Origin: a virus
IMG/VR virus record: IMGVR_UViG_3300031707_000158
Location: 1 to 25,460 of that record
Strand: one strand, 5' to 3'
DNA: 25,460 nucleotides
Below the pieces are notes generated by a model. The model was not told where the DNA came from and did not search any database. It saw only the letters and a list, made by a program, of their open reading frames with translations. Every line of letters begins with the position of its first letter. The first letter of the stretch is position 1. A program made the translations under genes and the position numbers. Positions 4,258 through 22,659 of the stretch are shown here, one piece after another.

Positions 4258-7200
4258 CCCACACCCCCGATGGTCCGCGGCGGTATCATATAGTTTGACC
4301 GCTTGTACTGCCCGTGAAGCCACTCGACCCGGCCGTTCGCGATCCGGAGCATCCGCTCATCGAGTTTCGTTCCATCCAGGTAGAATGGGATGGTCAGATT
4401 GATCGGGCCTTGTCCCCCGCCGCCTCCGGATTGCGGGATGCCTGCCAGTGGCCGTCCAGCCAGGTAGTCATCAAGATTTCCGATAATTTCGGGCTTGCGT
4501 TCAGCAACCATCGCCATTTGAGGGGCCCATGCAATTCCGCCCGAAGCGAAGCCTATTTCCCCGATTTTTTTATCTATGCTCTTGAGATATCCGACGACGT
4601 CTTTCAGGTAATGGCTGGAGGCAATGGTTTTTAAATAGCCACCGATTGTTCCCAGCCTATCCTTCACGCCTTTATCCAACTTCGTTGAAATGGCCCAAAG
4701 CGCCGTCTTGATATTGTCGTTGAGCGTATCAAATATCCTTGTGAGGAGGCTGATCTGGATATCTTGTCTTTCGACAACACGACCCATGCCGTCACCGGCG
4801 CCGGAACTACCGGAAGAGAAAATTCTTTTGAGCAAATTTAGGCCCGCCACGATGCCGAGTGCCAAGAGCGACGTGACGATGATCGCGGGCGCGGCTGCCG
4901 CAATGATCGTCGCTGCTGAAGCGATTCCGGTAGCCAATGCAACCATAGCACTAGCGATTGCCGTCGAGATTGAAATGATCGCCGCGCCGATCCCCGTCGC
5001 CAGACCGGAGATGAACCCGCCGATACCCGTTCCGATCCCAGAGATGAATTCCCCGATGGTCGTACCCAGGCCCTTGACATGCTCTCCCGTACCATCCAAC
5101 GCTCCGGCAACCGCATCCGTGCCCTTCCCGACGAGCTTCTCCGCCAATTTCTTGATGAGATCACCGATAGGTTTGAACATCGTGGTAAGGAAGATCGTCG
5201 TCATATTTTCGCAGGCCGTGGCGAAGATCCCTTTGACTTTGAACCAAAGACTATCTTGCCGCTTTAATTCATCATCGGCTTGCTTTTGCCGGGCCGTATC
5301 CTCGGCGATTCGGATGGCATTGAGGTCAGTCTCATGCTTCCATTGGAGGGCCAAGAGTTTTGCGGCCTGCGCTTCTTCCCTCTTGTACTTCGCATCTTCT
5401 CGCGCGCGTTCAAGCGCCACTTTCGCGTTTTCCCTGGCGATTTCGCGGGCTAGTTTAGCGGTCTCGTATTTCCTCTCCAGCGCATTAAGCGCCGCCTCTT
5501 TCTGGACCTCCGTCATCTTGCTGTTCTCTATGGCTTTCTTGTCGCGTTCGTACTTATCGGCGTATCGTTTATCTTCCTTGTCTTCCTGGCGGCTCCTCCG
5601 TCTGTCCGCATCTTCCTCAGCCCGCGAAATTTGCAATTCCTGCACATCGAAAGCCCTGCGGGACGCATCTGTAATTTTGTCGTAAGCCGAGTCTGCCGCC
5701 TTTACCATGTCGTCATAATAGGAGCTGTCGAATTTAGGGGTCTCGGGCATGGCCCCGAAGAAACCCTTGAAGTTGAAGAGTCCGGCAATCTCCGAGGCGA
5801 TATCCCGCATGGAGTCGGCGATGACGGTGGAACATTCCTGCCAAACGGATTTTGTTTTATCAGCCGCATCCTCACTTGCCGCAGGGATGTTTTGTAGATG
5901 CGCCGGGAGGTCCTTCATGGCCAGCTTTTCAAAATCGGCCTGCATCTGGTTCCGGAGGTCCTCGAACTCTTTAGACATGGCATCAGCAACCTCTTCGGCT
6001 GTTGCTGGCAGATTATCCATGCTCGACATGACCGTATCGAATGCTTTACCGAGGTCGATGACGGGACCTTTCAAGGCCGTCAGTCTGCCTTGAAGCGTGT
6101 TGATCTCTGTACAGATGCGTTGGATTTCATCGGCCGTTAATTTACCCCGGTAGGTGACCAATGCCTCATTCAGCTTTTTGATCTGTGCTTCGATATCCGA
6201 ACGGAACGTGATGCCGAGTTGTTCGGCGAGAGATCGGGTTTCAACCGTAACTCCGGTAATTTGTTCTTTGAGTTTTGCGATTTGATCTTCGAGCGCCTTC
6301 ACCGCTCCCGGCGTCGCTTCAGCCGAGTCCTTCAATAGCCGAAGCGCTTCTTCGGCCTTCTTCAATTCTTCCGTGAGTTCCGTTTTGGTCTTGACGCCAA
6401 GTTCCTTGAATAGCGCGGCTAGAGCCGAGAGGGCCGGGTTAAGACCGTCAATGGCACCCTTCTCTTCCAGGAGCACGTCTTTCATCCCGCGTCCGCCCTC
6501 TGTCGCATAAAGCCGAGCAAGGGCGTTGGCCTCAGATAAGACGATGTTAGAATCCTTCATTCCGAGGGCAACTTTGCGAATGCCGGAATTAACGCCCTCA
6601 AGAAAGGCCTCAAAGCCCGAGGACCCGGATTCCTTCATGGCGTCCCGCATATTGTTGAATTCAGACTTGAAGTCCGACATGGCCTTTATCGCGGTAATGA
6701 TTCCCACGGTGACGATGATGGCGATCGGGCCTGCGGCGATAGCCTTTAACGCCGTTAATCCCTTAATAAGCCCGGGGAGAGCATATAAGACTGGCCCGAT
6801 GGTCATCATCAGAGCGCCTAGGCCGAGCGCGACCTTGCTCAGCCCAGAGGCCAATTCGGGATGCTCTGCCGCCCATTCCCGGACCTTGATTACGATGCTA
6901 GTAATCTTTTCGACAAGTCCCTTCACCGCGGGCATGAGCGCCTGTCCGATCTGAATCCCGACACCCTGGAGTCCGCCCTTGAGATCCACGAGACTATCAT
7001 TAAAATCGGAACAAGCCTTTGCGGTCTCTACGGTTAAAACCTTTCCGAGACGCCCGGCTTCTTCGGCCTCACGCCTGAGCCCATCGGCACCCAGATTGAG
7101 CGTCGGGATAAGCGACATGCCGCCCTTGCCAAGAAGATCAACTGCGGCCGTCGTCTTAACCGCCCCATCCTCCATCCCCGAAAATCGTGTCGCAACGTCA

Positions 7201-11002: not shown

Positions 11003-11479
11003 TTAGAAGTCCGTCGCGTCCTCGTTCGCGCCCTTGTCCTCATCCCGGCCGATGTCGGAAATGTAGAACGGGGCTGGAGCCGCCGAGAAGTCCTCGAGGA
11101 TCAGCGCCACGAATGGCGGGATCGGGAGTTTCGTCAGGTCCCCTTCGGCATATTGCTCCTTGACGATCCCCGCGACGGTGACGCCTTGAGCCTGAATGCC
11201 CTTGCGCCGGTCCTCGTCGGCCAAATGAATGAGCATATATAGCGCCAATTCGCACTGGGCCTTCTGGAGGATGACGAGCTCCGCTACCGTCGCGCTCGCA
11301 AAAATGGGAAGGTCGAAAAGCCCGGAATAGAAAAGCCGATCATAAGCCGTCGTCAGCGCGGCGGTTTCCTTCGCCCGCCCCGAAGTCAAAGGGATGGTCG
11401 TCCAAGCGTCGGAGGACAGCCGCGTCGAAAAGTAGGCGTCGGCCTGCGTGAGGGTCAGATATCCTATTTCACCGGGCAT
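11003..11479 (-). CDS. Head-tail connector-type protein (158 aa)
   Basis: The start ATG at 11479 has a strong Shine-Dalgarno (GGAGG, five bases of spacing) that contains the stop codon of the preceding glycosyltransferase gene. The N-terminus (GYLTLTQADAYFSTRLSSDAW) and a following helix (AKETAALTTAYDRL) form the classic signature of phage head-tail connector/adaptor proteins often annotated as DnaT-like or gp6-like. Further helices cover residues 60-95. The C-terminus is acidic. It probably forms the ring beneath the portal. It restarts the structural gene order after the glycosylation cassette. Confidence 0.8.
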   Translation of the reverse strand: MPGEIGYLTLTQADAYFSTRLSSDAWTTIPLTSGRAKETAALTTAYDRLFYSGLFDLPIFASATVAELVILQKAQCELALYMLIHLADEDRRKGIQAQGVTVAGIVKEQYAEGDLTKLPIPPFVALILEDFSAAPAPFYISDIGRDEDKGANEDATDF

Positions 11480-11488
11480 TTTATCCTC

Positions 11489-12232
11489 CTAAAATAGTTG
11501 CGGATCATTCGCGTGGGCCGCACACTCCGCCCGTATCTTTTCTTCCGTGATATCGAAATTTTGAAAGCCCCAAGTATGACGTAGGTTTTCGGCGCTTTGT
11601 AATTCCCGCCGGCCTCGCATCCGCCGCACTATGGCTAAATCCACGTCGGCCATCATCCAATGCGCACCGTCGAATCTCGTGATTGAAATCTGAATCTTCG
11701 GATTCGGTTGATATTTATGAAACCCCGGCGTCCAATGAATATCCAGGCCCGATTTAACGATAATGGGCTTCCTGTACATGCCATTGAATCCGGCCGTCCT
11801 GTTCGGATCGCCATGCCTTCTCTGTAAAATAATCGGCCAAGATAAGTTCAGGTCTTTGTCCGTTCGATGACGGTAAACCTGCCATATATCGGCATAGATC
11901 AGGTTGCCGTCAGCCTGGCTTAGAGCCGTCCTTGCGTCCCCTCCCCCGCAGGGAAAGATGAACTCGTCCGTGTCCGGGGCCATTATCCAATCGCTATCCA
12001 CGGTAGCCGCGCCCTGGGCAACCAACCTCGTGACAAAGCCATAATCAATCTTCCCGGGCAGTTTGTAATTCCTGATCTTGGCGTTCGGATATCGAGAAAT
12101 AATCTCCGCCGTGCCATCGTTCGTCGCCTCGTCCAGGAGGATGATAATTTCATCGGCGAAGGCATAGTGGCTCAGAAAGAATGGGGCCAGCATCGCCTCG
12201 TTGAACCAGCGGGATATCACGGTGATCTTCAT
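11489..12232 (-). CDS. GT2-family glycosyltransferase (247 aa)
   Basis: A GT-A fold enzyme of family 2. The N-terminal Rossmann-like half shows ITVISRWFNEAMLAPFFLSHY, a nucleotide-sugar-binding strand (EIIILLDEATNDGTAEII), and the metal-binding DxD-type motif DTDEF at residues 87-91. The C-terminal half contains GFNGMYRKPIIVKSG and HWTPGFHKY, likely for acceptor binding. No transmembrane segment was seen, so it should act in the cytosol on a soluble acceptor with a nucleotide-sugar donor. The start ATG at 12232 overlaps the methyltransferase stop (ATGA), so the two are translationally coupled. Sugar and acceptor are unknown; a virion protein is my inference. Confidence 0.85.
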   Translation of the reverse strand: MKITVISRWFNEAMLAPFFLSHYAFADEIIILLDEATNDGTAEIISRYPNAKIRNYKLPGKIDYGFVTRLVAQGAATVDSDWIMAPDTDEFIFPCGGGDARTALSQADGNLIYADIWQVYRHRTDKDLNLSWPIILQRRHGDPNRTAGFNGMYRKPIIVKSGLDIHWTPGFHKYQPNPKIQISITRFDGAHWMMADVDLAIVRRMRGRRELQSAENLRHTWGFQNFDITEEKIRAECAAHANDPQLF

Positions 12233-12825
12233 GCGAATTCCTTAATAATGAGCCCGATGCCCATTTGGTATCCGGCTGTAATCCCCGCCTTTAGTGAATT
12301 GTAATGCCGGATAGTAAGGAGGAGGTTGCCCGTGTCTGTCTCGGCTATTTCTTTCCAGAGCCGGCCCACGTCGTCGAGGCCGTGAGTTCCGATGATCCCG
12401 CCACTGATGTCGTGGAGGACGATCATGTGCTTGGTCAATGGCCCATATGTCTCATAGTCGGACTTGACGCCCGCATAGGAATGATCGCCGTCGATAAAAA
12501 GTAAATCGATCGGTCGTCCCGCAAGGCGACCCTGTAATTGTGCGAATGTTTCGGGGTCCTGGGAATCGCCGTGGATATCGGGATGGCCGGGGGACCAATA
12601 GTTCACGTCGATCCCGATGTGCTCGGCATTTAATAGTTCCGTATAAAAAGGCTTTTGGGCATTATTCATAACGCCTATCTCGACGACGATCGGCCTCGGA
12701 ATTTCGCGGGTTCTAAAATAGTTGCCGGCAAACTCCAGAAAGCATCTCCATTCCTGAGTCGATTGGCCCAGGCATCCCTGGGCGATTTTCATCAAATCAT
12801 CGAATTCGGCTCTGCGAAGGTTCAT
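12229..12825 (-). CDS. Class I SAM-dependent methyltransferase (198 aa)
   Basis: The start chosen is ATG at 12825, overlapping the previous stop (ATGA), with a GAGGG Shine-Dalgarno; the reading from 13041 lies inside the preceding gene. Motif I is VVEIGV (residues 47-52), followed by the acidic strand end IGIDVN (70-75), LLFIDGDHSY (108-117) and VLHDIS (136-141). This order matches Methyltransf_24/CmcI-like methyltransferases, many of which act on sugars or small molecules. It lies between two glycosyltransferase genes, so O-methylation of the transferred sugar is the simplest reading. Substrate unproven. Confidence 0.83.
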   Translation of the reverse strand: MNLRRAEFDDLMKIAQGCLGQSTQEWRCFLEFAGNYFRTREIPRPIVVEIGVMNNAQKPFYTELLNAEHIGIDVNYWSPGHPDIHGDSQDPETFAQLQGRLAGRPIDLLFIDGDHSYAGVKSDYETYGPLTKHMIVLHDISGGIIGTHGLDDVGRLWKEIAETDTGNLLLTIRHYNSLKAGITAGYQMGIGLIIKEFA

Positions 12826-14462
12826 ACCAGTCCCTCGTTTAATACCCAGGGCCCCTCTATATCGGGGAAGTGTTTCGATATGCGAAATCCGCGAGTTCCT
12901 GCGTGGCCATGATGCACGTATTCGCTGGGAGTTCCCGCCTGGCCGCGTTCCGCATCGCTGAAATGGGAAAGGCCCGGAAATTGCTTGAGGATTTTCCCGG
13001 ACAATCCCTTTTTGTGAATATCGAGCATTGTTAAATAGCACGGCGCGCCGTGGTGGACATAGGGATAAAACTTCCGATAATTTCCAATATCGATGAGTTG
13101 AAAATAGGGCTGAAGATATCTCACAAAGCCTTCAACATGACCATGCGGTCCGTGAATAAAGCGATTGAAATCCGCCCGTTCATCAATGTCTCCGACGCCG
13201 AACGTGTCGTCCTCCATCATGGCCAGCATCGCCGGGAGGCACGGCTCCAAGAGTTCAATGTCGGAGTCGAAGATGAGGGCGTAGGGCGTCTTGGCCCTCT
13301 CTATCCCCATGCACATTCCCCGCCCGTGGCCGATGTTATAGCCGAGCGAGACGACGGTCGTGATGTCCGACGCCAGTCCGCGCACGTAGGTCGCGCACGG
13401 GTCATCCTTATCAGAGCCGTCGATGATTATGATCGGCATCTCGGGATGGAATTTACGGATGGAATCATAGGCCCGTTCGATCAGGTCTTTTGTGTTCCAA
13501 CAAACCGTGATCCCGGTGATAGGAAGATCCGTCTGGAAATACGAGCGGTAGTTTTCGCTGGTCAACTTCCCGCTCAGGATGTCCAGGTAAACCTGGCAAT
13601 CCTTCGGTACCCATTTCTTGAACGTCGCCCGATCAGCCGTGTCTTTAACCCCGCGATACATGGCCGGGTTATGGCCGATCCCTATCCCGGTACGCCCGGG
13701 CAGGCCCTTGATGCCTAGATATAGCGGCTTTTCGTTATCATTAAAACGATATCCCCGATTACCGACTTTCCGCCATATCCTCAAGTCCACAGCTGTACCA
13801 GCCGGATGGGGTGGTACAAGTTCATCGTTGTCATGTAAGATTTCTATAAATTCCGGCAAAAATGAATTCCTGAAAGCCGTTTCAGAAAGAGAACAATGTG
13901 AGGCGTTTTGGTGGATATGATATCCGCCCGTCGGGAGGTGATAATATTTGGCCTGAGTGATTCCGACGACTTCATGCTGATCGAGTTTGCGCGCCACTTC
14001 TGCGATATATTCCGGTGCGTAATAGTCATCGTCCTCCATGATGATTATCTTGTCGCCGGCAATGAAAGGAAGCGCTGCCGCCAGGTTAAGGCTAAGCGTA
14101 TGCTGCGGATCGTCCGGGCGCGGCTCACGCCGAACATATTTGATGAAGTCGTGAATTTTGAAAGCCTCATCCAGCATCGTTGGCACCTTGCCGTCATCGA
14201 CGACGATCCACTGGCCCGGCTTCTGCGCCTGGTGTTTCATCCATTGCTGACAGAGCGCAAAAGCGAGCGGCCGGTCGCCCGTCGGAGTTATGCAGGTAAT
14301 CCGAAAATCGGTTGGCAGGGTCTTGATATAGTTTACGGGATCAGGAGGAAGACTAGGCGTGGCCGTTCTATACGTTTTATGGCTTGCGTGGTCCGCCCGT
14401 TGTTTTTGCCGTAGGGCCAAGATCTCTGCAACGCGGGGATCCCTCGTGGTTATCATTGCCAT
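12822..14462 (-). CDS. Two-domain glycosyltransferase (546 aa)
   Basis: The start chosen is ATG at 14462, with AAGGA six bases upstream; ATG at 14456, which overlaps the previous stop (ATGA), is the alternative. Two GT-A-like domains lie in tandem. Domain 1 (about 52-290) has FRITCITPTGDRP, QWIVVDDG and the acidic metal site IIIMEDDDYYAP (residues 139-150). Domain 2 (about 313-540) has ITGITVCWNTKDLIERA, PIIIIDGSD and ALIFDSDIEL (residues 395-404). The N-terminal 30 residues contain RVAEIL, also found near the start of the neighbouring gene product. No membrane segment is visible. Two active sites in one chain suggest building of a disaccharide or longer glycan. The middle of this gene is AT-richer than its surroundings (40-43% GC in two rows counted). 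Confidence 0.85.
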   Translation of the reverse strand: MAMITTRDPRVAEILALRQKQRADHASHKTYRTATPSLPPDPVNYIKTLPTDFRITCITPTGDRPLAFALCQQWMKHQAQKPGQWIVVDDGKVPTMLDEAFKIHDFIKYVRREPRPDDPQHTLSLNLAAALPFIAGDKIIIMEDDDYYAPEYIAEVARKLDQHEVVGITQAKYYHLPTGGYHIHQNASHCSLSETAFRNSFLPEFIEILHDNDELVPPHPAGTAVDLRIWRKVGNRGYRFNDNEKPLYLGIKGLPGRTGIGIGHNPAMYRGVKDTADRATFKKWVPKDCQVYLDILSGKLTSENYRSYFQTDLPITGITVCWNTKDLIERAYDSIRKFHPEMPIIIIDGSDKDDPCATYVRGLASDITTVVSLGYNIGHGRGMCMGIERAKTPYALIFDSDIELLEPCLPAMLAMMEDDTFGVGDIDERADFNRFIHGPHGHVEGFVRYLQPYFQLIDIGNYRKFYPYVHHGAPCYLTMLDIHKKGLSGKILKQFPGLSHFSDAERGQAGTPSEYVHHGHAGTRGFRISKHFPDIEGPWVLNEGLV

Positions 14463-15226
14463 AGGTCGTCCTTGTCTCCAAACTCGAAGCACCTGAGCGC
14501 GGAGTCCGGGTTAAGGTTGATGACCCGCGGCCTGCCATTGAGTAATGCCGCGCCCGCCTCGAAAGCCCGCTTGAATATATTCAATGCATCCGGGTTCCCG
14601 CCGGAAGGATAGCCGTCGTGATAGTTTTTTTCCCCGGCCGGGCCCCTTGAGCAATCATAGCCGAGTAGATAGACCGGGTCCCCACCCAAGACCATCGCTA
14701 GATTCAGGGCCCCGTAGCCCGAGTTCTGGCCGTGAAACAGCCCGTCCCTGAGGCTCTTCGTCCAGCCGATCTCGCCAGCCGACGGCAAGGAATAGACGCC
14801 CGGCGGGTACGAGTAGCCGGAGAGGTCCAGCCACAATTTCACGCCTTCGAAGGCCTCGAATGCAGTCTTGAAATTGTCGCCGAGTTTTCCTTCCATGATC
14901 CAGTCCAAAAACGGCCGGTCCATTCCGAATACGATGTCCGCGAAGGGAACGTCATAAAATGATTTATTGATGGCGATGACCCGCTCACCGCGGAGCCGTT
15001 CGAAGTCGAACCCCTTGAGGCTCGGCCCGCCGCCGACGATGAAGCACCGCCGGCCGGCCCAAGAGCCGTCGGGCAGGATCTCCCATGCCGGCCGTTGGGC
15101 GGGCGAAGCCGCCACCTGATTATTCCTCCAGGTCCGGGTCCGCGCCGCGGCTTCGCGGGCGGAGATCGAGTGCCGCAGGATCTCGCTGACCCGCGCCGAC
15201 CGCATCGTCAGCAATTCAGTCGCCAC
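14453..15226 (-). CDS. MptE/DUF115-like Rossmann-fold protein of glycan cassette (257 aa)
   Basis: The start is GTG at 15226, with GGAGGAGG close upstream. After a helical N-terminal segment of 40 residues (contains RVSEIL), a Rossmann-like motif follows: CFIVGGGPSLKGFDF (residues 61-75), then ERVIAINKSF and ADIVFGMDRPFLDW. The C-terminal part contains PVYLLGYDCSRG (residues 184-195) and NYHDGYPSGGN. The GxGPSL strand-loop and LGYD motif resemble DUF115/MptE-like and sialyltransferase-like proteins that are found in phages beside glycosyltransferases. It probably binds a nucleotide-sugar or related donor. Catalysis is not proven. Confidence 0.75.
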   Translation of the reverse strand: MATELLTMRSARVSEILRHSISAREAAARTRTWRNNQVAASPAQRPAWEILPDGSWAGRRCFIVGGGPSLKGFDFERLRGERVIAINKSFYDVPFADIVFGMDRPFLDWIMEGKLGDNFKTAFEAFEGVKLWLDLSGYSYPPGVYSLPSAGEIGWTKSLRDGLFHGQNSGYGALNLAMVLGGDPVYLLGYDCSRGPAGEKNYHDGYPSGGNPDALNIFKRAFEAGAALLNGRPRVINLNPDSALRCFEFGDKDDLWQ

Positions 15227-15244: not shown

Positions 15245-15281
15245 GAAAAAGATGGGGGAGGAACCGTCCGGGCCCCTCCCC
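15245..15281 (-). terminator. Rho-independent terminator after the capsid gene
   Basis: On the minus strand the sequence after the capsid stop reads GGGGAGG, a 13-base loop region, CCTCCCC, and then CATCTTTTTC. The seven-base-pair GC stem extends by two G-U pairs. A T-run directly downstream makes this the clearest intrinsic terminator in the window. It separates the capsid gene from the glycosyltransferase cassette. Confidence 0.75.
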
Positions 15282-15323: not shown

Positions 15324-16325
15324 TTATGCGATCGCGCAGCGCTTGAACTGCTCCTGGTCGCCGATCGCCCCGCCGTACCGCATCCAGCCGACAGCGATGT
15401 CGGCATAGGCTTCCTCATCGAACTTGTTGAAGATGGTGAGGTTCATGCGGTTGCCGCCTTTGGCTTTGATCTTGGGCAGGACGACGTAATAGACCGTGGT
15501 CGTCGTCAGCATGGTGGTCGGGAGTAGCCGGAACTTGTAGCCCACCATAGAGGGCCCACCATATCCCTGAAGCAGAAGCCCGAGAGCCTTGGTCAGCCGC
15601 CCGACGATCTGCAACGGGGTAAGAACGGTGAACGTGGCATTGGCCGCGGTCACGCCATAACCCTTGTCCTGGAGGTCCAGTAGGATCGTCTGAGCCGCGA
15701 GATTCAACGTCTGGGCATCCCGGTTGGCCGTATAGGTCTGCTCCGTGGCGGCGAGTCCCGCCGGATCGGGGAGCTGCCAGCCGATGTTCTGCGCGGCAGC
15801 GACCGCCTCGATCAATGCATAGAAGCAGGCCGCCTTGTGCTCGGCCGCCTTGTTGACGAACGCGACGGCGTTGTCCTCGAGTGTCCAGTACTTCTTGTCG
15901 TCGATGAGCAGCCGGCTCCAGCCCAGGCCGCCGCCGTAGATGTCGAAGGCGACCGAGACCTTCGTCCCGGCCATTTTGAAGATCAGGGCCTTATCGCCGA
16001 GCGCTACCTTGGCGAAGGTCAACCCGTCCTCGACGTCAAGGATGTCGAATCCGCTCTCGTTGGTGCCCGTGAAGTCGCGAATGTCGAAGATCTCCTCGAA
16101 CCCGGTATCATAGGCCGGGACCGCATGGAACTTTTCGAGGATCTGATGAGCGGCCGCCGGGAAGTCGCCCGGCCCGCCGAATGCCTGGAGTGCTTGCTGG
16201 TAACGCTTGGCTTCCGCTTTCTGTCTCTCGCCCGAGGCGAAATACTGGACGGCCGCGAAGATCTTGTCCCGACCCGCCTGGGTCGAGAAGTCAAGCTTGC
16301 TGAGGTCTGAAAAGATTTTGCTCAT
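15324..16325 (-). CDS. Major capsid protein (333 aa)
   Basis: The start chosen is ATG at 16325, because GGGAG sits seven bases upstream; the ATG six bases earlier would leave only one base of spacing. The protein has a helical N-terminal arm (residues 1-50), a Gly/Pro-containing linker, then an alpha/beta body (VSVAFDIYGGGLGWSRLLIDDKKYWTL). A helical region with KAACFYALIEAVAAAQ follows, and then strands rich in Thr and Val near TTMLTTTTVYYVVLPKIKAKGG. Size and position after the scaffold and decoration genes match an HK97-fold coat protein. A strong terminator follows. No motif is unique to the family, so the call rests on order, size and fold pattern. Confidence 0.85.
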   Translation of the reverse strand: MSKIFSDLSKLDFSTQAGRDKIFAAVQYFASGERQKAEAKRYQQALQAFGGPGDFPAAAHQILEKFHAVPAYDTGFEEIFDIRDFTGTNESGFDILDVEDGLTFAKVALGDKALIFKMAGTKVSVAFDIYGGGLGWSRLLIDDKKYWTLEDNAVAFVNKAAEHKAACFYALIEAVAAAQNIGWQLPDPAGLAATEQTYTANRDAQTLNLAAQTILLDLQDKGYGVTAANATFTVLTPLQIVGRLTKALGLLLQGYGGPSMVGYKFRLLPTTMLTTTTVYYVVLPKIKAKGGNRMNLTIFNKFDEEAYADIAVGWMRYGGAIGDQEQFKRCAIA

Positions 16326-16337
16326 GGTCATGCTCCC

Positions 16338-16709
16338 TTACGCGGCCACGTCGCCGTTGAAATCGGCCAGGACGGTGTTATCAAACGCGCCGGCCGCGAC
16401 GAGACACCGCCCGCAAACCACTCCGCTTCCGCCGGAAGTGGTCACTCCGGCATCGCCGCTCGTGAAATAGAGCTTGTCCCCCTGGGCGAATACCGGTCCG
16501 CCGGTGCACGCGATCTTAGGGAGAAGAATCTTGTGAGCCGCGATGCACAGCGCGACGTGCACGCCGACGAGGACGGTCTCATAAGCCACGCCGATCAGGC
16601 CGCTGACGACGTACATCGCCCCGGCCACGACCCCGCCGACCGGGGCGGGGACGGTGATCGACTTGGTCTTGTCGGTCCCGCACCGCAATTGAATTCCTGT
16701 GATTGCCAT
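16338..16709 (-). CDS. DUF2190-like capsid decoration protein (123 aa)
   Basis: The start ATG at 16709 has AGGAGG five bases upstream. The protein is all beta with many Gly and Val residues. It contains VAGAMYVVSGLIGVAYETVLVG, KILLPKIACTGGPVFAQGDKLYF and VVCGRCLVAAGAFDNTVLADFNGD. This strand pattern is typical of the DUF2190 family, small capsid cement proteins often encoded between protease/scaffold and coat protein, as lambda gpD is. It likely stabilises the expanded capsid. Confidence 0.82.
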   Translation of the reverse strand: MAITGIQLRCGTDKTKSITVPAPVGGVVAGAMYVVSGLIGVAYETVLVGVHVALCIAAHKILLPKIACTGGPVFAQGDKLYFTSGDAGVTTSGGSGVVCGRCLVAAGAFDNTVLADFNGDVAA

Positions 16710-16727: not shown

Positions 16728-16749
16728 CCCGCCCGCACTATCAGGCGGG
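16728..16749 (-). other. Hairpin spanning the scaffold stop codon
   Basis: CCCGCC and GGCGGG can pair over a ten-base loop that contains the last bases of the scaffold stop codon region. It lies just ahead of the Shine-Dalgarno of the decoration gene and has no T-run. It might modulate expression between scaffold and decoration/coat genes. Evidence is structural only. Confidence 0.3.
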
Positions 16750-17310
16750 GATCAATTCGTTGTTTTTCGGATCGAGGAGGTTCGTCTTGTCCCGATTTTC
16801 TTCGGCGGCCCGGGCGGCAGCTTCAGCGGTTTTTTCCGCATCGGTCTTTCCGCCCTTGTCACTCGCGCCCTTCGTGTCGCCCATCAGTTCTGTGAACTCG
16901 GTCACTTGATCATCGACGAATTTATTCAGTTCGTCCTTGACCTTGGCCTCGTCCTTCGGGGTAAAGGATTTCTCGAAGGATTTGCGGATGAACTTGACAA
17001 GACGTTCGTCCCCTTTAAGCTTGGGGCGTTCGGTAAGCACGGTCTCGAACGATTCCCGAGCCTTGGTCTTCAGCACGCTGGTCTTTGAAGACGCCAGCTC
17101 GTCCTGCAGGGCCTTCTTCTCCGTCTCCAGGGTTGCGGCCTTCGCCTCGACATCCTGAAGCCTCCGGATCTGATAGCCCTTGGCGTTGTTGATTTTCTCC
17201 TCCACGTGCTCCTTGATGAAGGGGTCGGAGGTAAGGGCCGTGGGCGCAAACACGTCCGACGGGCCGAACTTACCCTCCTGGATTGCCTGTCTGATTTCTT
17301 CCAGGGTCAT
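16741..17310 (-). CDS. Nested scaffold protein from internal start (189 aa)
   Basis: Within the protease gene and in the same frame, ATG at 17310 (residue 193 of the longer product) is preceded by AAGGAG with eight bases of spacing, one of the best Shine-Dalgarno sites in the window. It lies exactly at the junction of protease and scaffold regions (MTLEEIRQAIQ). The product would be a free, helical, charged scaffold with a coiled coil, as with Mu Z inside I and lambda Nu3 inside C. Independent expression is inferred from the signal. Confidence 0.78.
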   Translation of the reverse strand: MTLEEIRQAIQEGKFGPSDVFAPTALTSDPFIKEHVEEKINNAKGYQIRRLQDVEAKAATLETEKKALQDELASSKTSVLKTKARESFETVLTERPKLKGDERLVKFIRKSFEKSFTPKDEAKVKDELNKFVDDQVTEFTELMGDTKGASDKGGKTDAEKTAEAAARAAEENRDKTNLLDPKNNELIPA

Positions 17311-17886
17311 TTTGTGGTCTCCTTGATGGGATTTCTCGGCAAACGCCCGGAACTGCGCCAAAAGCGTGGCTCCGGGGAACGCCGGTTTTTTTACATGGGA
17401 ACTGCCGAGGGCAATCCCCGTGACTTCCTGAATATCGACGTCCTTGACGTCAAACTCCCGGCTATCATTCGGGACCATGACCACTGCCTCAATCGAGGCC
17501 ACGTCGAGCGGGAGGTCCCTGAACTGCGGGTAGATGTAGGCGACGGCGATGGATGACAGCGAGCCTTCGATGTTCTTGAGCGCCTTGCCCACGATCTCCC
17601 CGATGGCCTGTCGTCCTTCGGCCTTGTTCGTGGGTCCGTGGTTGTGGTAGACGGGGATTCCGAGTCCGAGCTTCTCCGTGAGCTTCTCTATGGCGGACTG
17701 GAACCACCGCTGGACCGTCGCGCCGATGCCGACCATGTCCGGCCGGCATTCGCCCTCCTGGCCGACGCGGAAGACTTTGAAGACCGGGTTCGGGTCTTCG
17801 CGCTTGATATCCTTGATCGTGCGGGGAGAAATGAGCCCGAGGACTTCCGAGTCCGCCATCGCCAAGACACGCGCTAGGATTTTCAT
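16741..17886 (-). CDS. Prohead protease fused in frame to scaffold (381 aa)
   Basis: The start chosen is ATG at 17886, with GGGAG six bases upstream and a four-base overlap with the previous ORF; the reading from 17910 lacks this. Residues 1-185 form the protease part: IPVYHNHGP (78-86, likely catalytic His), EGSLSSIAVAYIY (107-119, likely catalytic Ser), and SSHVKKPAFPGATLLAQF (162-179), which closely resembles the end of Mu gpI-like protease domains. Residues 193-381 are helical, with a coiled coil around 245-275 and a Lys/Glu/Ala-rich tail, as expected of a scaffold. The exact catalytic residues are inferred. Confidence 0.82.
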   Translation of the reverse strand: MKILARVLAMADSEVLGLISPRTIKDIKREDPNPVFKVFRVGQEGECRPDMVGIGATVQRWFQSAIEKLTEKLGLGIPVYHNHGPTNKAEGRQAIGEIVGKALKNIEGSLSSIAVAYIYPQFRDLPLDVASIEAVVMVPNDSREFDVKDVDIQEVTGIALGSSHVKKPAFPGATLLAQFRAFAEKSHQGDHKMTLEEIRQAIQEGKFGPSDVFAPTALTSDPFIKEHVEEKINNAKGYQIRRLQDVEAKAATLETEKKALQDELASSKTSVLKTKARESFETVLTERPKLKGDERLVKFIRKSFEKSFTPKDEAKVKDELNKFVDDQVTEFTELMGDTKGASDKGGKTDAEKTAEAAARAAEENRDKTNLLDPKNNELIPA

Positions 17887-18080
17887 GTCATTCTCCCGTA
17901 AGGCTCCCAAACGCCGCGTCCCGGACGTTGGCGCTCTTGATGATGTCCCGCCAGATCTGCCGGCGCCCCTGCCTCGGGACCCCCATGCGGTGGGTGCATC
18001 GTGGCATCGAGCCGGCGAACGATGGCCCGCACTTTCCGAGCCCGCCGGCGGAGCCTCCAGAGGCGGAACTTTCGAAACAT
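17883..18080 (-). CDS. Small basic ORF with likely frame switch (65 aa as read)
   Basis: The start ATG at 18080 has AAGGGA six bases upstream and follows the previous stop closely. The first 30 residues are a basic helix (MFRKFRLWRLRRRARKVRAI). The rest of this frame (HGGPEAGAPADLAGHHQE...) looks like out-of-frame DNA. G or C at codon position three is 24 of 31 in the first part and only 18 of 34 in the second, while the adjacent frame gives 26 of 30 there. The coding signal therefore seems to move by +1 at a run of five G residues near 17984. It could be a frameshifted gene, a programmed shift, two tiny genes, or a sequencing error. Confidence 0.55.
   Translation of the reverse strand: MFRKFRLWRLRRRARKVRAIVRRLDATMHPPHGGPEAGAPADLAGHHQERQRPGRGVWEPYGRMT
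17888..17986 (-). CDS. Alternative-frame distal segment (32 aa from ATG)
   Basis: This frame reads MGVPRQGRRQIWRDIIKSAN and then VRDAAFGSLTGE, which is more protein-like than the overlapping frame and ends at a TGA two bases before the protease start. No Shine-Dalgarno precedes its ATG, so it is more likely the C-terminal half of the upstream small gene, reached by a +1 shift, than a gene of its own. The joined product would have about 63 residues. Function unknown. Confidence 0.4.
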   Translation of the reverse strand: MGVPRQGRRQIWRDIIKSANVRDAAFGSLTGE

Positions 18081-18083
18081 GGC

Positions 18084-18290
18084 TTATCCCTTCGGCTTGC
18101 GTCCCGGCTTTTTATGGGAGGGGGCCAGGACGGGTTTCACGTCCTTCTCTCCGGTGATCGCCGGGGTTTGGCGCTTGGCCCCCACGTTCGAAGTCGTCAG
18201 TAAAGGCCCCTTGGCTGCCTTGCGCACCGCCGGATACGCGGGCCGCTGAGGCTCAACGCTGTTGGTTGTCGGTACGTTTCTGGTTATCAT
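18084..18290 (-). CDS. Small disordered protein after portal (68 aa)
   Basis: The start ATG at 18290 lies inside the end of the portal gene (38-base overlap) and has GGAG seven bases upstream. The product is rich in Pro, Lys, Thr and Val, has no predicted hydrophobic core, and ends in a basic tail (SHKKPGRKPKG), so it is probably disordered and nucleic-acid- or protein-binding. Its place between portal and protease suggests a head-assembly role. No family recognised. Confidence 0.6.
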   Translation of the reverse strand: MITRNVPTTNSVEPQRPAYPAVRKAAKGPLLTTSNVGAKRQTPAITGEKDVKPVLAPSHKKPGRKPKG

Positions 18291-20882: not shown

Positions 20883-21340
20883 TTCTTTGGCTTCCCGTTT
20901 CCTTTTCCCTTACCGCTGTCGCCGGACCTGGTATGGACGACGCGGATTGTGAGCTTGTCGCCGGTCTTGATAGAGCCGGAGTGCTCGAGCTGCGTCTTCT
21001 CCCGCCATTTCTCCGGCTGCCGGTTCTTTAGCCAGAAGATCATGGCGGTCGTGTCGCCGGCCATCCATACCCTTTTCCCGCTTTTATCAAGCGTCTCGTA
21101 TCCGATCGCCTTCTTATAGAGGCTCTGAGTGATCTGAAAGTCCGCCTTGAGCTTCCCCCTTTTTAGGGACTGCAAAAACGCGGGGTGTTTCTTCCAGTAA
21201 TTCAGGGTTCGGGGGCTGATATCGAGGATGACAGCAATCTGCTCATCGATCAACCCCATGCTGGCAATGACCTCCACCTTTTCGAGGTTGAGTTGATCCA
21301 TCTTGAACGGGTGATTGAGCTTCGCGACTTTGACTTTCAT
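20879..21340 (-). CDS. terS: Terminase small subunit (153 aa)
   Basis: The N-terminal helix-turn-helix (about residues 24-52: VIASMGLIDEQIAVILDISPRTLNYW) is of the kind used to bind packaging sites. A central helical segment (GKLKADFQITQSLYKKAIGYE) is probably the oligomerisation region, and the C-terminus is basic and Gly/Lys-rich. Start and stop overlap both neighbours by four bases (ATGA). Directly upstream of the large terminase, it should recognise phage DNA and start packaging. The family assignment rests on the helix-turn-helix and context. Confidence 0.88.
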   Translation of the reverse strand: MKVKVAKLNHPFKMDQLNLEKVEVIASMGLIDEQIAVILDISPRTLNYWKKHPAFLQSLKRGKLKADFQITQSLYKKAIGYETLDKSGKRVWMAGDTTAMIFWLKNRQPEKWREKTQLEHSGSIKTGDKLTIRVVHTRSGDSGKGKGNGKPKK

Positions 21341-22659
21341 CGGCCAGTCCTCCGGATCTTCTCTTCAGGGACGCCAGTGAAATCGGCATAGCGCTTGATG
21401 ATGACGTCACAGTACTTGGTATCGATCTCCATGAGGAAGGCATTGCGGCCAGCCTTCTCGGCCGCGATGAGGGTGGAGCCTGAGCCGCCGAATAGGTCCA
21501 GGACGTTCTCGGCTTTCCTCGAGGAGCACTCCATCGCACGCACCGCGAGCTCCACGGGCTTCTCGGTCAGGTGGACCATGCTGGCCGGGTTGACCTTCTT
21601 GACCGACCAGACGTCCGTGGCGTTCGATGGGCCGAAGAACTTGTGGGCGGCCCCTTCGCGCCAGCCGTAAAAACACCATTCGTGGTTCCCCATGAAGTCC
21701 TTCCTGGTCAGGACCGGGTGCTCCTTGACCCAGATGACAGCCTGGCTGAAGTAGAGGCCGCTCTCGCGAAGAGCCGGCGGATAGTTGCCGCAGTTCGCGT
21801 AGCCGCCCCAGATGTAAAATGAGCGACCGGGCATGAGGACCCTGGCCAGGTTCCCGAACCAGACCCTGAGAAGAGCGTTGTATTCTTCCTCGGAAAGAAA
21901 GTCGTTCTCGAGCGGGCGGTCCTTCGCCCTCATCTTGATGATCGAGGCGCCTTTCTTCCTCCTGGGTTTACGTGCCGTGTCGAATGCCTGGTGGTGTTTC
22001 ATTGTGCCGGAGGCCTTCGCGGCCGCGATGGCATTAACCGACCGAGGCTCCACCTTGACGTTGTAGGGCGGATCCGTGTTGACCAGGTGGACCCTCTCCC
22101 CATTCATGAGCTGATCGAGATCCTCGGGGCTCCCGCTGTCGCCGCACATGAGCCTGTGTCGTCCCAGCAGAAAGACCTGCCCTTTTTGTGTAATCGACGG
22201 AGAGTCATCGATCTCCGGAACCTGGTTCGCCTTATCGTCAAATTCTAAGGAGAATCCTTCGAGAAGGATCTTCAAGTCCACCGCCTGGCCGATGTCGACC
22301 TTGAAGTCCTCGAGGTTGAGCTTGGCCATGTAGGGGAAGATGAGCTCTGCCAGCTTGTCCTCCTCGTAATAGCCGGCGCGATCGTTGTCGGAGAGCGCGT
22401 ACTCGATCTTTGCAGCCTCGTCCTTCGGAGCGACGATGGAGATCTCGACATCCTGGACCCCGAGCTCCTGGAGGGCCCGGATCCTCATGTTCCCGCCCAG
22501 GACGACGTACTTCTTGCCGGCCTGGTAGCAGACGAGCCGTTTGTAAACGCCGAGCTTAAGGATCTGCTTCTTGAGGCGCTCGAAGTCCTCCGCCTTGATA
22601 CCGCGGGGGTTTTTGTCCCACGGGACGATGGAGGAGATGGGGACCTTGATGATCTTCAT
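21337..22659 (-). CDS. ParB-domain/DNA methyltransferase fusion (440 aa)
   Basis: Residues 1-90 form a ParB/sulfiredoxin-like domain: VPISSIVPWDKNPRG, then YVVLGGNMRIRALQELG, matching the ParB GxxR motif. Residues 160-435 form a DNA methyltransferase with DPPY at 196-199 (motif IV) before DLFGGSGS at 388-395 (motif I). That order is of the beta class of N4-cytosine or N6-adenine methyltransferases, with the target-recognition region between them. Such fusions are common in phage genomes. The role could be protection from host restriction or marking of packaged DNA. It sits directly before the small terminase with an ATGA overlap. The target sequence is unknown. Confidence 0.93.
   Translation of the reverse strand: MKIIKVPISSIVPWDKNPRGIKAEDFERLKKQILKLGVYKRLVCYQAGKKYVVLGGNMRIRALQELGVQDVEISIVAPKDEAAKIEYALSDNDRAGYYEEDKLAELIFPYMAKLNLEDFKVDIGQAVDLKILLEGFSLEFDDKANQVPEIDDSPSITQKGQVFLLGRHRLMCGDSGSPEDLDQLMNGERVHLVNTDPPYNVKVEPRSVNAIAAAKASGTMKHHQAFDTARKPRRKKGASIIKMRAKDRPLENDFLSEEEYNALLRVWFGNLARVLMPGRSFYIWGGYANCGNYPPALRESGLYFSQAVIWVKEHPVLTRKDFMGNHEWCFYGWREGAAHKFFGPSNATDVWSVKKVNPASMVHLTEKPVELAVRAMECSSRKAENVLDLFGGSGSTLIAAEKAGRNAFLMEIDTKYCDVIIKRYADFTGVPEEKIRRTGR

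Follow-up and report, generated by a model that had tools for sequence, protein, structure and literature searches.

Cassette genes and their families

The window analysed here is a 25,460-bp IMG/VR virus record. The minus strand carries its main late genes in the order TerS, TerL, portal, small ORF, protease/scaffold, decoration protein, major capsid protein (MCP), a cassette of four genes, the head-tail adaptor Ad1, minor head protein, further connectors and tape measure. The identities of portal and protease rest on position and length, the best PHROGs for both being unannotated. A fusion of a ParB-like protein with a DNA methyltransferase (21337-22659) is found immediately upstream of the terminase small subunit. 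The features discussed below are:

18084..18290, minus strand: small basic low-complexity protein with tag-like PTTNSVEPQ and LTTSNVGAK and a Lys-rich GRKPK tail
16741..17910, minus strand: probable prohead protease/scaffold, candidate partner of the tag (position; matches only phrog_24820, of unknown function)
16338..16709, minus strand: head decoration (cement) protein, alternative acceptor (domain/PHROGs match)
15324..16331, minus strand: MCP, Phage_capsid_4-like, candidate acceptor (domain/PHROGs match)
15255..15281, minus strand: terminator-like hairpin with 11-bp stem between MCP and D115 (position conserved in relatives)
14453..15226, minus strand: D115, MptE/Maf/GT42-like glycosyltransferase, the fixed gene behind MCP (domain, profile and fold)
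15185..15211, minus strand: N-terminal tag of D115, LTMRSARVS (motif model, codon comparison)
12822..14456, minus strand: double GT2-type glycosyltransferase, here double GT (domain match, motifs)
14427..14453, minus strand: N-terminal tag of double GT, ITTRDPRVA (motif model, codon comparison)
12229..12825, minus strand: class I methyltransferase, Methyltransf_24 (domain match), proposed to be a glycan O-methyltransferase
11489..12232, minus strand: GT2 glycosyltransferase, Glyco_tranf_2_4 (domain match)
11003..11479, minus strand: Ad1, downstream border of the variable slot (PHROGs)

The ORF and domain check confirmed that the four genes reported in the initial annotation are present between MCP and Ad1 on the minus strand, with corrected starts. 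D115 begins with GTG after GGAGGAGG. The double GT begins with ATG at 14456, or with the in-frame start at 14462, and ends at 12822, a longer ORF start at 14492 being discarded; the methyltransferase begins with ATG at 12825, in place of the discarded ORF start at 13041, and ends at 12229. The genes had been described as all joined by four-base overlaps, and this is accurate for the three internal junctions, all of them ATGA, but not for the MCP side, where 97 bp containing the terminator-like hairpin separate MCP from D115. Ad1 begins 9 bp past GT2 with a ribosome-binding site of its own. A chance origin of the cassette was dismissed because all four proteins match a family and the set turns up again in relatives.

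Profile searches agreed with the identities first assigned to the products (MptE/DUF115-like, double GT, class I methyltransferase and GT2), the match of D115 to PF01973 (MptE-like; E 9e-4, 19.6 bits) being under the curated Pfam cutoff of 34.6. D115 matches phrog_4603, 'alpha-2,3-sialyltransferase', at E 5e-25; the C-terminal half of the double GT matches PF00535 (E 7e-21), the methyltransferase Methyltransf_24 (E 3e-7) and GT2 Glyco_tranf_2_4 (E 4e-8). Both the double GT and GT2 score above cutoff against PF00535/PF13704 and carry DXD-type motifs, those of the double GT (DDG/EDD and DSD) being invariant in 10 relatives. The AlphaFold model of the double GT (10 sequences) reached a pLDDT of 40.8 and no fold was assigned. 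As was claimed initially, none of the four products has a TM-like segment.

D115, at about 250 aa, consists of a single domain and an N-terminal tag. Its structure model (pLDDT 92.7, alignment of 74 sequences) is predicted to share the fold of the Maf catalytic domain: Maf of Magnetospirillum (5mu5) was the sole PDB fold match at E <= 0.001 (E 8e-5, prob 1.00), and the likeness covers just part of Maf (TM 0.49 on the query, 15% identity). The D115 sequence profile also matches Cst-II (E 4e-4, profile positions 44-184). These two matches agree with the published resemblance between the PF01973 domain of Maf, an enzyme that O-glycosylates Ser/Thr of flagellin, and Cst-II (PMC11339370). Maf thus offers a precedent in fold and in the cytosolic attachment of O-linked sugars to a structural protein that self-assembles (PMC11339370), but it is a three-domain protein (632 residues in 5mu5), and only the D115 gene adjoins a capsid gene; moreover, no gene of the nonulosonic-acid pathway, which supplies the donor type of Maf enzymes, was identified in the window. 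With the GT42 sialyltransferases Cst-I and Cst-II, D115 shares a GGGPSL-type loop region and the name of its PHROGs family. The Cst enzymes, however, use lipooligosaccharide as substrate, and no CMP-sialate donor pathway was recognised in the window.

A fixed gene and a variable slot

Scans with MCP, double GT and D115 gathered relatives amounting to 101 distinct MCP loci. D115 lies directly behind MCP in all 90 distinct loci with downstream sequence of 1 kb or more, and in 70 of 70 ascertained via MCP only; it is therefore a core head-cluster gene of the lineage. The earlier description of the cassette as an interruption of the head gene order is accordingly misleading, since D115 belongs to that order and variation is confined to the genes after it. 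The gap between MCP and D115 in relatives is typically 50-100 bp, and a terminator-like hairpin was found in 55 of 77 such gaps as against 44 of 385 shuffled gaps, a frequency consistent with enzyme levels far below capsid levels. The hairpin sequences of these 55 relatives are unlike one another.

MCP relatives 38-72% identical to that of the window occur on MAG contigs, five of seven assigned to Candidatus Aminicenantes, one to Acidobacteria and one to Omnitrophota. The host link to Aminicenantes that these contigs provide is uncertain, as is the binning of viral contigs. Two related MCP loci (L158 and L160) lie on large contigs of one MAG, Candidatus Aminicenantes MAG fen_413, and are probable prophages.

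The interval from D115 to Ad1 is a swap site for glycosyltransferases, methyltransferases, radical-SAM and nucleotide-sugar enzymes. It ranges from 0 bp to 9.2 kb in the 46 loci with a recognised Ad1, and in L092 and L096 the slot is empty, D115 standing alone with 0 bp to Ad1. The 427 slot proteins form 136 clusters, 77 of them singletons, and the Pfam tally of 127 representatives includes methyltransferases, radical SAM (10), GT2, SDR epimerases, FkbM methyltransferase, CTP_transf-like, LicD, polysaccharide deacetylase and PKD. The complete set of the window (double GT, methyltransferase and GT2) is present in 12 of 95 loci, and the methylated oligosaccharide suggested initially can hold for the gene set of the window only. 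In L002 the MCP is 48% identical to that of the window while the double GT is 81% and GT2 85% identical; in L017 the MCP is 87% identical and the slot is different. These contrasts in identity show that slot content moves independently of the capsid gene. Searches among cultured phages found no match to the double GT and just weak matches to GT2 and the methyltransferase (one metagenomic megaphage).

Radical-SAM proteins recur in the slots (L021, L082, L097, L061, L075 and others), and collagen-like Gly-X-Y repeat proteins, possible head fibres, are found at the Ad1 end in L123 (15704-17044) and L115 (13338-14921).

In 46 of 95 loci the D115 ORF is fused or extended to at least 400 aa, with GT2, Nucleotid_trans, GT29-like or methyltransferase domains as fusion partners in examples, and such fusions suggest a common acceptor. 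None of the 427 slot proteins is polytopic (at least three TM-like segments), and none is a polytopic flippase or Gtr/Wzy membrane protein, the hallmark of a serotype-converting gtr/O-antigen cassette.

D115 is also encoded near MCP or adaptor in phages outside the lineage. Pseudomonas phage D3 has the order MCP, orf6.5, D115 (orf7 region) and Ad1, its D115 being 29% identical. The order MCP-D115-Ad1 is common to D3 and the window, but D3 is without slot enzymes between D115 and Ad1 and no tag was seen in its annotated proteins; the MCP search from the window did not match the D3 MCP. The stretch of D3 that resembles D115 (L165, about 5001-5555) starts ahead of orf7 as annotated and reaches into orf6.5, so the annotated orf7 start is probably too late. 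Psp6 has MCP, a small ORF and D115, and further on a methyltransferase and the connector, and D115 is within a few genes of MCP or adaptor in phages from metagenomes whose MCPs belong to other families (phrog_617/10, 1328, 247 and 267; phrog_1623 structural protein). In CcrColossus D115 is not by the MCP but behind a large tail protein, followed by nucleotide-sugar transferase, methyltransferase and GT9 genes. D115 was absent nearby in Microcystis phage MACPNOA1, a distant MCP relative, and the MCP fold therefore does not need it. A literature search on DUF115 with phage capsids, or on the D3 sialyltransferase, found nothing relevant.

An N-terminal tag on D115 and other proteins

The N-terminal extensions of D115 have a nine-residue motif in common (ITTRDPRVA / LTISDLPRR; ITTRDxRV). 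A one-per-sequence model trained on the D115 proteins of the lineage reached a log-likelihood of 404, as against 130-145 in shuffled controls, and 82 copies were counted where shuffles gave 3.9, with at most three per protein. A two-component EM motif fit collapsed to background composition and was dropped. The tag is present in 83 of 88 D115 within the MCP lineage, a descriptive figure as the model was trained there, and in 1 of 17 elsewhere, the one (L109) being on a contig that ends before its MCP. Independent support comes from the shuffles and from unrelated proteins carrying the tag.

Among the slot enzymes, 20 of 381 pass the tag threshold, about half of these weakly or in regions possibly matched by chance. 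The tag stands at the start of the double GT in the window and in L002, L100, L101 and L057, it opens an unrelated Nucleotid_trans enzyme in L099, and it is near the N-terminus of a GT9-family enzyme in L050. Outside the slot, a small tag-array protein is encoded in the portal-protease interval of 38 of 59 loci with room for it, where 2.6 were expected, as counted by a looser regular expression written after the motif had been seen. Small basic proteins with two to four ITT-type tags and GRPKK/GRKPK tails are exemplified by L158 8068-8253, L057 7384-7725 and L067 7800-8267; those of the window and relatives had no match in PHROGs.

Pairs of tagged N-termini have 7-8 identical residues, 3-5 of them written by different codons, so selection acts on the tag peptide and not on the DNA. 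A recombination junction as the source of the shared N-termini was ruled out by the same codon differences. Model confidence across the tag of D115 is 88-93, and the tag may consequently pack on the D115 domain or on a partner. Like the capsid-targeting sequence of T4, a short N-terminal peptide common to unrelated head proteins that directs them into the prohead and is cut by the prohead protease, the tag is a short N-terminal peptide on several unrelated proteins, one of them encoded in the head cluster; it differs in sequence and can be repeated. We tentatively suggest, as a possibility somewhat short of a likely one, that the tag, [LIV]-T-[TMI]-x-[DS]-x-x-[VR], may be a lineage-specific head-docking code that brings exchangeable glycan enzymes, as well as the tag-array protein, to the capsid during its assembly; an enzyme gaining the tag would thereby join a plug-in virion glycosylation factory. 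Ser or Thr is present at tag positions 2-4 in 73 of 76 tags, and in a variant of this idea the conserved Thr residues might themselves be the sites glycosylated by D115.

Proposed glycosylation of the virion and other possible roles for the cassette

We consider it probable that the cassette works as a module for O-glycosylation of the virion: D115 would prime a head protein, exchangeable enzymes would build up the glycan, and the enzymes would be tethered to head assembly by the tag. Capsid protein would be made first, and read-through of the terminator would yield catalytic amounts of D115. This proposed priming protein O-glycosyltransferase, of Maf/GT42 fold, would add the first sugar to Ser/Thr of a cytosolic head protein during assembly, most likely MCP or the head decoration protein. 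The double GT, methyltransferase and GT2 would then extend and methylate that sugar, and other phages of the lineage, with different slot enzymes, would place different glycans on the same kind of head. The tag on D115, on several slot enzymes and on the small array protein may tether the enzymes to the assembling head. The initial annotation had argued for a cytosolic acceptor among the virion proteins, and this part of it stands as the best reading, partly supported overall, because the linkage of D115 to MCP is invariant, the fold is that of Maf, polytopic proteins are absent, D115 recurs by other MCP families and the tag is shared. Counting against the module are the position of D115 by a tail protein in CcrColossus, its absence in MACPNOA1, the many slot enzymes without a tag, the partial likeness to Maf and the missing nonulosonic-acid pathway.

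The main rival, on account of the tag on a small basic head-cluster protein, is that the tag is a prohead-targeting signal, much like that of T4 internal proteins, by which the array protein, D115 and tagged glycosyltransferases are taken into the head, enter the next cell with the DNA and glycosylate a host target there. The location of the tag at or near the N-terminus, the Lys-rich GRPKK-like tail of the basic protein in many relatives and the confinement of the tag to one MCP lineage would all suit such delivery. We nevertheless regard it as unlikely, since D115 stands beside the MCPs of other phages without the tag, many slot enzymes are untagged, and the sugar-biosynthesis and radical-SAM enzymes of the slot fit synthesis in the late phase better. 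A comparably low probability is given to conversion of the host surface, whereby changes to LPS, capsule or S-layer glycans would block superinfection. Phage glycosyltransferase cassettes with this function are well known, D115 resembles Cst-II, a lipooligosaccharide enzyme, and the slot glycan enzymes vary fast; yet the 427 slot proteins include no GtrA/GtrB-like, flippase or polymerase-like polytopic protein, the cassette belongs to the late head operon, where its place behind MCP is fixed, and the tag is common to a small head-cluster protein.

A virion surface protein other than MCP, such as cement or the collagen-like or PKD-domain proteins that some relatives encode in the slot next to Ad1, is a rather improbable acceptor. 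Collagen-like (L123, L115) and PKD proteins do occur in slots, and the D115 of CcrColossus lies behind a tail protein, but most slots, including that of the window, are without either, whereas MCP is always adjacent. Modification of nucleosides or DNA by the set appears very improbable indeed: phage glycosyltransferases and methyltransferases can act on DNA bases, but no base-hypermodification genes were recognised in the window, enzymes of the Maf/GT42 fold and of GT2 are not DNA glucosyltransferases, and the cassette sits in the late head operon.

Glycosylation of the virion by phage enzymes, the reading that we prefer, has precedents. To our knowledge, it has been documented in tailed phages mainly for a few mycobacteriophages. 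In Che8, Corndog and Myrna, phage glycosyltransferases glycosylate capsid and tail tube proteins, according to PMC12363180 and to Freeman et al. 2023, cited by PMC11256854. The glycosyltransferases of the window are likewise phage-encoded and free of membrane segments. In Maravista, an F1 phage, the genes for glycosyltransferases are located towards the 3′ end of the genome (PMC11256854); the arrangement described here is different, combining a Maf-like gene fixed behind MCP, a swap slot and a tag common to several proteins.

If the cassette is indeed a virion glycosylation module, the whole Aminicenantes-linked lineage and many other phages in which a Maf-like gene lies close to that of the capsid protein, among them D3, would make glycosylated heads, and the head glycan would be swapped like an antigen type. 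The tag could explain how soluble glycosyltransferases get directed to the capsid. The proposal also gives a testable function to a gene that is widely annotated as 'alpha-2,3-sialyltransferase' or 'hypothetical' beside capsid genes.
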